Source of the DNA: Hyalangium gracile
GTDB taxonomy: Bacteria; Myxococcota; Myxococcia; Myxococcales; Myxococcaceae
NCBI RefSeq assembly: GCF_020103725.1
Contig: NZ_JAHXBG010000020.1
Coordinates: forward strand, 1-64,000
Length of the DNA stretch: 64,000 nucleotides
Direction of reading: 5' to 3'
The position numbers and the translations under genes are program-made. Within the stretch, counting starts at the first letter, position 1; every line of letters begins with the position of its first letter. Below are positions 15,860 to 23,835 of the stretch, piece after piece. The notes under the pieces were generated by a model. That model ran no database searches. It worked only from the letters and a program-made list of their open reading frames with translations, and was not told the DNA's origin.

Positions 15860-16557
15860 TCAGCGGGCCTGCAGCAGCACGAGTAGGTCCGCGGAGTACG
15901 GCTGCAGGTCCAGCGCCTGCTCGAGCTGCTGGGTCGCCGTGGGCACATCCTTGCGGCGCGGCGCGAGGCCAGCAGCTCGAGCGCCGCCACGCCGCGCGAG
16001 TCCCCCAGCTGCGCCAGCGCGAGCGCCGAGGCCTGGCGCGCCCAGAGGGACGAGTCCTTCAGCAGGGGCACGAGCTCCTCGGAAGTGGTCCAGCACGCCG
16101 GAGCCCTGGCAGGTGGCCTGGTTGGCGCTCACCCGCGCCGGAGCGTCCTTGCGGAGCTGAATCTCGTTGGGCGCGTGCTTGTCGTGGGGCGCGCTGTGGC
16201 ACGTCAGGCAGGTGGCGCCGCCCTTCATGTGGCAGAGCGACTGGGTGAGGGCCTGGTTCTCGAAGCTGCTGGTGCTGGGGCGCCCGTCCTCGAAGTAGTC
16301 CCCGGAGAGCTCTCCGGCCACCAGCAGCACCATGGGCTGGGCGGAAGCGGTGGGCCGCGTCCAGCAGGGGGAAGAGCGTCCGGCGCGGCCCGTGGCACTG
16401 GGCGCACACGGCCAGGCCGAGCTCGGGCGACAGGTGCCGGGGCTGGAGGATGTCCTTGGGGTCCTGCGTCTCGGCGTGGCGGGCCCCGGGGCCGTGGCAG
16501 CTCTCGCAGGCGACTCCGGCGTCCGCGAACGTCGTCTTCCACTGGTGGGAGCCGCCC
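15860..16557 (-). pseudogene. Decayed multihaem cytochrome c with HEAT/TPR tail
   Basis: Read on the minus strand, one frame gives HQWKTTFADAGVACESCHGP and AVCAQCHGP (two CxxCH haem sites). A frame change near 16350 gives MVLLVAGELSGDYF and ATCLTCHSAPHDKH (a third CxxCH). Near 16080 the frame changes again to a HEAT-like repeat (VPLLKDSSLWARQASALALA), and near 15960 to a TPR-like end (QQLEQALDLQPYSADLLVLL) with a TGA at 15860. At least three frame changes and no start codon or signal peptide remain. Intact relatives are much longer periplasmic multihaem proteins. It is a relic, not a working gene. Confidence 0.85.
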
Positions 16558-16559
16558 GC

Positions 16560-17201
16560 TCACGCGCCTTGCGAGAGGAAGCGGAAGTGCTCGGGCTGAC
16601 GCTGGCAGCGGAACAGGTAGCCTCGGCCGTTGTCCCCGAAGTCGAGACCGAACGGCATTGCCGACAGCTGCGCCACGAAGCGCGCGGGCTCTCCGCAGCA
16701 CTCGGGGGGCGCGTCCCCATTCAGCCACACGGGCACCCCGCCCACCTTGCTCTCCGGCGCGTCCTCCTGCGCCCGATCCAGGGCCTGGAGCTGCTCGCTG
16801 GTCGCCTCGTTCACGTCCACCGAGAGCGTCGCCGTGTCCTCCTCGGCGGGCGCGAAGCCCAGGGTCCACACGTTGTACGGAATGCCCTGGGGGCGATCGC
16901 CTTCCACCTTCGGCTCGCCCGCTCGTACCGGTACCGCGGCGTTCGCCCCGTCGTCCGGCATGGAGCGGTAGCAGACGGTGTCGGGGTTCTCGCACTGGAA
17001 CACGTACACCGCCGCGTGCGGCGACAGATCCAGCTTCCCCGGCACGTGCGGGAGCTGGAAGAGGAAGCGCATCGGCGTGCCGCACATGCGACAGGCCGGC
17101 CAGCGCAGGGAGCCCACGGGCTCGGGTTCGCCGCCCACCTTCGCGAGCGGCACTCCCTTGCCCCCAGGCACCAGCGCCCAGAGAGGAGCGAAGGTGGCCA
17201 T
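16560..17201 (-). CDS. DUF1963/YwqG-like protein (tentative)
   Basis: A 213-aa soluble protein with Cys pairs typical of structural zinc sites: CRMCG (about 38), CENPDTVC (about 70) and PECCGEP (about 165). The phrase MRFLFQLPHVPGKL followed by VYVFQCEN resembles YwqG/DUF1963 proteins, cytosolic proteins of unknown role. The N-terminus is hydrophobic but lacks a signal-peptide cleavage site. Its stop abuts the decayed cytochrome, and a hairpin repeat lies about 53 bp upstream of its start. The gene looks intact; the family name is uncertain. Confidence 0.65.
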   Translation of the reverse strand: MATFAPLWALVPGGKGVPLAKVGGEPEPVGSLRWPACRMCGTPMRFLFQLPHVPGKLDLSPHAAVYVFQCENPDTVCYRSMPDDGANAAVPVRAGEPKVEGDRPQGIPYNVWTLGFAPAEEDTATLSVDVNEATSEQLQALDRAQEDAPESKVGGVPVWLNGDAPPECCGEPARFVAQLSAMPFGLDFGDNGRGYLFRCQRQPEHFRFLSQGA

Positions 17202-21431: not shown

Positions 21432-23835
21432 TCAGGCGAACAGGCGCTGAACGAAGCTGCGCAGGCGCTCCGGCTCGAAGGGCTTCTCCAGGAACTCGCC
21501 CGAGTAGGAGCCCAATAGCTCGCGGGTGGGCGTGGAGAACGTCCCGCTGGACATGAAGCCGGTGCGGCGCGCCAGCCCGGGCTCGCGCTGCTCCAGCTCT
21601 CGCAGCAGGTCCACCCCGCTCATGCGCGGCAGCACCACGTCGCAGAGCACGGCGTCATAGCGCTCGCCGCGCGACAGCAGGTGCAGCGCCATGCTCACGT
21701 CCTGCACGGAGTGCACCTCGTGCGCCTCCTGCAGCAGCCGGCGCACGGAGGTGCCCACCGCGGGCTCGGCGTCGATGAGCAGCAGCCGCCGGCGAGGCCC
21801 CTTGCTCTCCACCGGCGCCTGGCGGGCGTGGGACTCGGCGCGCTCGCGCGCCTGGGTGGCCGGCAGCACCAGCCGGAACACGCTGCCGCGCCCCAGCGCG
21901 CTCTCCACCTCGATGCGGCCGCCCATGGACTGGATGATGGACTGGCAGATGGCCAGCCCCAGCCCGGTGCCCTCTCCGGCCGGCTTGGTGGTGAAGAACG
22001 GATCGAAGATGTGCTGGCGCACCTCCGGCGTCATGCCCGGCCCGTTGTCCTCCACCTCGATGATGACCGAGTCCTTGCCCTCGCTCCGGGTGGCGAGCCG
22101 CACGCGGTTGCGCGCCGGATCATTCTGGGGGAAGGCCTGCAGCGCGTTGACCAGCAGGTTCACCAGCACCTGCCCCAGCCGGCCCTCGTTGCCGAGGATG
22201 GCGGGCACCGGCTCCAGCGCGCGCTCCAGCTGGGCGCGGTACTGCAGCTCCTTGCGGACCAGCCGCAGCGCCCCGTCGATGGCGCGGTGCACCTCCACCG
22301 GCCCGGTGTGGTTCTCGTCCGCGCGCGCGAAGCTCTTCACCCCCTGGGCGATGCTGCGCACGCGCTGGATGCCCTCCTGCGTCTCCGCCAGCACCTCGCG
22401 CAGCTCCGGCAGCTCCTCGGCGGAGATGGCCGGCTGCGCCAGCGACTTCTCCAGGAAGGAGAGGTTGGAGCAGACATAGGCCAGCGGGTTGTTGATTTCA
22501 TGCACCACGCCGGCGGCCAGCGTGCCGATGGAGGAGAGCCGATCGGCCAGCTGCAGCTGCGTCTCCAGGCGCTTGCGGTCGGTGATGTCGCGGAAGACGG
22601 CGATGAGGAAGGCCGAGCCGCCGGGCTCGGTGAACACCGCCTTCTTGATGATGGTCGTCCGGCGCGAGCCGTCCTTGCCGTCCTCGAAGACGCGCTGGTA
22701 CTCGACGGGCTGGCCGCTGGTGAAGAGCTGCTCGTCCTGCTCCCAGAAGGCCTCCGCCTCCCGGGCGGGGAACACGTCCCGGGCGGAGCTGCCCAGCAGC
22801 TCCTGCTCGGTGCGCCCCAAAAACTCGCAGAAGGCGCGGTTGACCATCACCCAGCGGTGCGCCCGGTCCATCACGAAGAGCGGATCCGGCACCGCGTTCA
22901 GCGTGTTGCGCAGGAAGTCCCGCGTGCGCTCCAGCTCCTCCTGCGCGCGGATGCGCTCCAGCTCCGCGCCCGCGCGCGCCGCGAAGGCCGCCAGCAGCGC
23001 GTGCTCCAGCGGACCGGCCTCCAGCGGCTGGTGGTGCAGGATGGCCAGCACGCCGATGGCGTTGCCATTGCCGTCCTTCAGGGCCGCCCCCAGGTACCCG
23101 CGCATGCTCAGCTTGGTGAGCATCTCGTCCTCGGGGTAGCGCTCCGCCACCCCGTCCGGGCAGTGGCAGACGGACTTGCGGATGGCCTCGTCGCACGGCG
23201 TGCCGCTCAGCGAGTACACCACGCCCCGCTGCAGGCTGCCGTTGAGGTAGAAGGCCAGGGTGCGGATCGAATCCCGCTCCGGCAGCAGCTCGCCCACCAG
23301 CACGCACGAGGCGCCGTAGACCGCCGACAGCTGCTCCACCAGCTTGCTGAAGAAGAGGTAGCCCAGGTCCGCCGAGGTGCTGTCCAGCAGGGCCCGCAGG
23401 GCGGCTCGGAGCGAGAGCCCCTCGGTGGGGGACTCCTCGGCCGGCAGCGCAGGGGGGGGCGACTCCCAGCGCGACCAGGCGCCGGGACACCGTCGTCATC
23501 CGGGCCAGCCAGTCGCCGCCCGGCGGGGCCACGCACTCGTCGGCGCCGGCCTGGATCAGCGCGCGGCGCTCCGCGTCCAAGCGCTCCGTCAGGACCACCA
23601 TGTGGGTGCGCAGGATGTTGCGGCGGGCGTGCAGCTCGCGGCACAGCTGCTCCACCTCCGTCATCGAGCGGCCCGGATCCCCCAGCACCACGAGCCCCTC
23701 GGGCAGCTGCCGGGGCAGCTCATCGAGAGTGCGGGCATAGAGCCGGGCGCACCCGTCGAGCAGTCCTTGGGACTCGAGCTCGCGCTCGAAACCATCCCGG
23801 ACACTCGGGGGGATGCCCAGCAGGGTGACATGCAT
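21432..23835 (-). CDS. Hybrid sensor histidine kinase, frameshifted at a C8 tract
   Basis: Translation from ATG 23835 gives a receiver-like N-terminal domain (MHVTLLGIPPSVRDGFERE, THMVVLTERLDAERRALIQA) of about 125 aa, ending at a run of eight C on the coding strand (23452-23459). Past the run the frame changes. With one C fewer it would continue into a GAF-like domain (LGYLFFSKLVEQL), PAS (LDAV-type block NTLNAVPDPLFVMDRAH), HisKA with VVHEINNPLAY (phospho-His), HATPase with NLLVNALQ, VEDNGPGM and GTGLGLAIC, and a C-terminal receiver (AVLCDVVLPRMSG). The second part has no good start of its own. It may be a pseudogene, a phase-variable gene or an assembly error. Confidence 0.82.

Follow-up and report, generated by a model that had tools for sequence, protein, structure and literature searches.

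Why is a signalling-kinase gene divided between two reading frames at a run of eight C? The run lies at positions 23452-23459, minus strand, of the window (the whole stretch of DNA that was analysed, 64,000 nucleotides long). An earlier note had claimed that it broke a hybrid histidine kinase in two, and had offered a phase-variable slippage site, a pseudogene, programmed frameshifting or a sequencing error as possible reasons. The parts of the locus, all on the minus strand, were as follows.

23460-23835, minus strand: N-terminal part, a domain with a receiver fold, read in frame from ATG 23835 and ending at the tract (AlphaFold2, Foldseek)
23452-23459, minus strand: C8 tract, where the frame changes; linker one base longer than in H. 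versicolor (sequence and alignment)
21432-23451, minus strand: second frame, GAF-PAS-HisKA-HATPase-REC, with TGA at 21432-21434; its open stretch reaches upstream to 23495, and GTG 23339 is the first canonical start
22965-23405, minus strand: GAF-like region (PF13185, 20.6 bits, under the cut-off of 28.6)
22569-22901, minus strand: PAS domain (PF08448, E=2.6e-15)
22314-22526, minus strand: HisKA with H-box HEINNP (PF00512, 27.2 bits against a cut-off of 26.9; motif seen in the translation)
21855-22190, minus strand: HATPase_c (PF02518, E=1.2e-28)
21450-21782, minus strand: C-terminal receiver domain, REC (PF00072, E=2.1e-12)

The tract was confirmed as the boundary between two reading frames of one kinase gene. 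The frame of ATG 23835 ran for about 125 residues to the tract and then stayed open for about 320 out-of-frame codons. The second frame carried in one protein the HisKA with a phospho-acceptor histidine, the HATPase_c and the REC that define a hybrid histidine kinase. As the earlier note had said, this second part had no plausible start: the first ATG, GTG or TTG after the frame opens at 23495 was GTG 23339, which fell within the GAF region, and no Shine-Dalgarno-like sequence was found for it. In the present genome no single frame joined the N-terminal domain to the kinase of this locus; a second, intact paralogue of the kinase, 55% identical, was present in the same genome. The N-terminal part had been called receiver-like, and this was borne out by structure prediction, but not by Pfam. 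It gave no match in Pfam or NCBIfam, whereas AlphaFold2 predicted a receiver fold with the beta-alpha order of receivers (pLDDT 89.4), for which the top Foldseek matches in the PDB were the receiver domains of PhoB, KdpE, and CpaE. It had neither the acidic pair nor the Lys of a working receiver, and its D53 was invariant in 12 sequences. Elsewhere in the window, a gene with CxxCH-like motifs (16000-16560, minus strand) seemed to shift frame twice, near 16345 and near 16083, both times at the string CTTCCG and away from any long homopolymer; this is possibly a degraded cytochrome gene.

Each of the six other genomes of the genus had the kinase orthologue as one continuous frame, about 800 codons long. 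Two separate orthologous genes with good starts were looked for, and the orthologues were found to be fused. The nearest relative was H. versicolor H56D21 (L043), with 84.7% identity over the N-terminal part and 87.3% over the C-terminal part. Its orthologue (801 aa) differed by one base at the linker, so that the present linker is one base longer than that of a continuous gene, in agreement with the earlier proposal that one C fewer would restore the frame. A comparison of tract length among close relatives found no C run at the linker in any aligned genome (H. versicolor, a MAG, and three further genomes). Compared with H. versicolor, dN/dS was about 0.20 in the N-terminal part and about 0.29 in the C-terminal part. 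With a third genome as outgroup, the synonymous and nonsynonymous changes in the C-terminal part numbered 42 and 36 on the present branch versus 64 and 56 on that of H. versicolor, with no surplus of changes on the present branch. No additional stops, shifts or relaxed selection were seen over the roughly 2.4 kb of the locus. Since selection was not relaxed and no second lesion was found, the break is either very recent or not real, that is, an assembly error. The same observations, together with the continuous frames of the relatives, argue against a programmed shift, an old pseudogene, two functional genes and a conserved phase-variable tract.

The host is a predatory soil myxobacterium, whose genome is a draft of 11.7 Mb in 81 contigs. 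It contained about 153 distinct C/G runs of at least eight, of which 122 were exactly eight long and about 31 longer. In the 64-kb window the tract at 23452-23459 was the only such run, and there were no runs of exactly seven. At one run per 64 kb the window matches the usual density of this genome, and the tract by itself is ordinary; the frame break is the notable part. Dinucleotide shuffles of the window gave a mean of 11.5 such runs versus the one observed, indicating that long C/G runs are far rarer than chance. The number of distinct runs differed among genomes, with about 153 in 11.7 Mb here (G000), 153 in 13.6 Mb in H. versicolor (G059), and 663 in 10.3 Mb in a further genome (G038).

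By codon-usage frame on either side, 150 of the approximately 153 runs were classified. Thirty-seven lay in frame within genes, and most others were intergenic or at gene edges. After reading of the candidates, genes were judged broken at 4 of 41 coding runs of at least eight, the ambiguous L156 being left out of the count. The broken genes other than the kinase were the following.

L158:903-2927: LodA-like oxidase, halves matching LodA_N and LodA_C, at a run of 8-10 G
L163:1714-2320: DUF2378 protein, its halves matching the two halves of DUF2378, at ten G
L181:1542-2805: acyl-CoA dehydrogenase, the halves matching the two halves of one enzyme, at a run of 8-10 G

In all four genes the frame shifted the same way, as one extra base would shift it; since a survey of runs of at least eight favours finding expansions, this agreement is not independent evidence. 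Among shorter runs, 122 of six or seven had both flanks in one frame. Three of the five breaks called at length six and the single one at length seven were inspected, and all resembled gene edges; the C6 candidates L142 and L270:4417 lay outside this reading. Broken genes were more frequent at runs of at least eight (4/41) than at runs of six and seven (Fisher p=0.004, assuming every one of the latter to be unbroken). A frame-switch HMM run over 602 kb of coding DNA gave a few switches away from homopolymers, some of them unconvincing. In H. versicolor 0 of 13 coding tracts were broken, a small sample, and in G038 one of about 24. The excess over the relatives was not significant (4/41 versus 1/37, p=0.36). 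The broken gene of G038 (L384, near 1539) seemed to shift frame beside about eleven C. The apparent breaks at L170, L270, L295, L296, L297, and L320, like the C6 cases, were rejected on reading as gene edges, and L187 as it resembled a gene start. Eight-G runs were also seen directly upstream of gene starts, at the position of the ribosome-binding site (L270:4391, L295:2001, L296:1995, and L297:2022), where a change in length could tune translation.

Accumulating slips would predict that mismatch repair is down, and mutS was therefore examined, as the sole gene tested for this prediction. It was split into two frames (G000:C2:20669-23301, L447, minus strand) that meet at G000:C2:22363-22375, and at the junction the present genome had C5 versus C6 in the same context in G030. 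The five other isolate genomes of the genus all had mutS whole, in a single frame; the MAG copy was cut by contigs. On the present branch mutS had no relaxed selection, no greater length and no raised transitions. Since selection was unrelaxed and the branch not longer, the loss of mutS is recent too, and since there was no excess of transitions or changes either, a mutator state, if there is one, can only be very young. Of the marks of a mutator, inactivation of mutS or mutL was present for mutS in the draft sequence. An excess of substitutions or transitions on the branch, which is expected only in an old mutator, was found in neither mutS nor the kinase. Judging from the sequence, the strain is probably a mismatch-repair mutator.

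On balance, we lean towards a recent +1 slippage frameshift in a conserved hybrid kinase, probably helped by the loss of mutS, over an assembly error. The locus would be one gene, about 800 codons long, for a hybrid histidine kinase with receiver-like, GAF, PAS, HisKA, HATPase, and REC parts. Ordinary replication slippage may have added one base to a C run, specific to this lineage, in the linker that joins the N-terminal domain to GAF. The predicted product is the receiver-like domain followed by a meaningless tail, with no kinase and a presumed loss of function. Further slippage could restore the frame, which would make the tract an accidental on/off site, not one selected as such, and slips would collect in this strain as mutS is also broken. 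We infer that the mutation is real rather than introduced by assembly, that the loss of mutS came first and caused the slip, and that the function of the kinase was lost.

The main rival, which we regard as possible but doubtful, is that the draft has the wrong run length and that the organism carries an unbroken gene. The genome is a draft of 81 contigs, and contig 18 starts with 76 G (L321:1-76), which suggests short reads from two-colour chemistry that were imperfectly trimmed. Short-read platforms do miscount runs of eight, and more often than shorter runs (PMC11140927). The unrelaxed selection on the kinase would be expected of a whole gene, and platform bias would likewise give the shared extra-base sign of all four breaks. 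However, a consensus over many reads should beat single reads, mutS breaks at a run of just five C, and H. versicolor, seemingly a short-read assembly from its contig names, had none of its 13 coding tracts broken, although the sample is small.

The other explanations give the tract a function or the break a greater age. That the C run is maintained by selection as an on/off switch of the kinase is improbable: the type and position of the tract are typical of phase-variable genes, and this genome has four genes turned off at tracts like it, but no relative carries a run at the linker, long C/G runs are rarer than chance in the window, and the four broken genes (kinase, oxidase, DUF2378 protein, and acyl-CoA dehydrogenase) have no common theme. 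No report of homopolymer phase variation in myxobacteria was found in the literature searched. A related scheme, which we consider very improbable, is that mutS itself is switched on and off by its short C run (C6 in frame, C5 out) and that its off-state reshuffles signalling and metabolic genes, the kinase included, through their rare long C/G runs. It is exceedingly improbable that the full-length kinase is made as well, through a programmed +1 shift of the ribosome or slippage of transcription at the C run. CCC-C is a +1-prone sequence, and a +1 shift would keep the linker length of the orthologue; but the slippery site is missing in every relative, all of which make the protein without it, and the zero frame continues for about 320 codons with no stop near the site, unlike typical cases. 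Scarcely credible, too, is an old pseudogene or a pair of separate functional genes; the genome has no full-length frame of this kinase, but about 2.4 kb carry no other lesion, selection is not relaxed, the second part lacks a usable start, and the orthologues are fused. Of the options in the earlier note, recent slippage, which amounts to a newly formed pseudogene allele, is the best supported. The absence of the tract from all relatives and their uniformly continuous frames speak against a programmed shift and against a phase-variable site under selection.

Taken alone, the kinase break is nothing more unusual than a frameshift or a slip of the assembly. With the mutS lesion beside it, the sequenced strain becomes a candidate mutator, which, if true, matters to those who use the strain as the reference of its genus. 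In drafts of this kind, genes broken at C/G runs of at least eight call for a check before they are labelled pseudogenes or phase-variable.

Among known systems, the kinase shares its PAS-HisKA-HATPase-REC core with the EspA- and EspC-type hybrid kinases of myxobacteria (NCBIfam NF052574 and NF052573), which were its best NCBIfam matches (1.8e-128 and 8.4e-114). However, its scores were far under both curated cut-offs (430 versus 1200 bits and 381 versus 1400 bits), so that identity as EspA or EspC was rejected, and it has a receiver-like N-terminus and a GAF region, unlike either. In phase-variable genes of Neisseria, Campylobacter, and Bordetella the frame likewise depends on how long a G/C run within the gene is, whereas here the tract is absent in relatives, with no sign of selection keeping it. 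Broken mutS is shared with two other cases, the mutators that arose when M. xanthus evolved with prey (PMC6754418) and P. fluorescens ATCC948, a natural strain, frameshifted in mutS, with a mutability about 166 times that of a relative (PMC4316635). Compared with these, the present case is known from the draft alone and has as yet no long-branch or transition signature. If the strain is indeed a mutator, it would be a natural myxobacterial counterpart of the mutS mutators observed in the laboratory in predatory myxobacteria. In mismatch-repair-deficient E. coli, indel rates climb exponentially with run length, and runs of eight G.C in tRNA genes are hot spots (PMC8510543); small indels at homopolymers are what is expected of strains deficient in mismatch repair.
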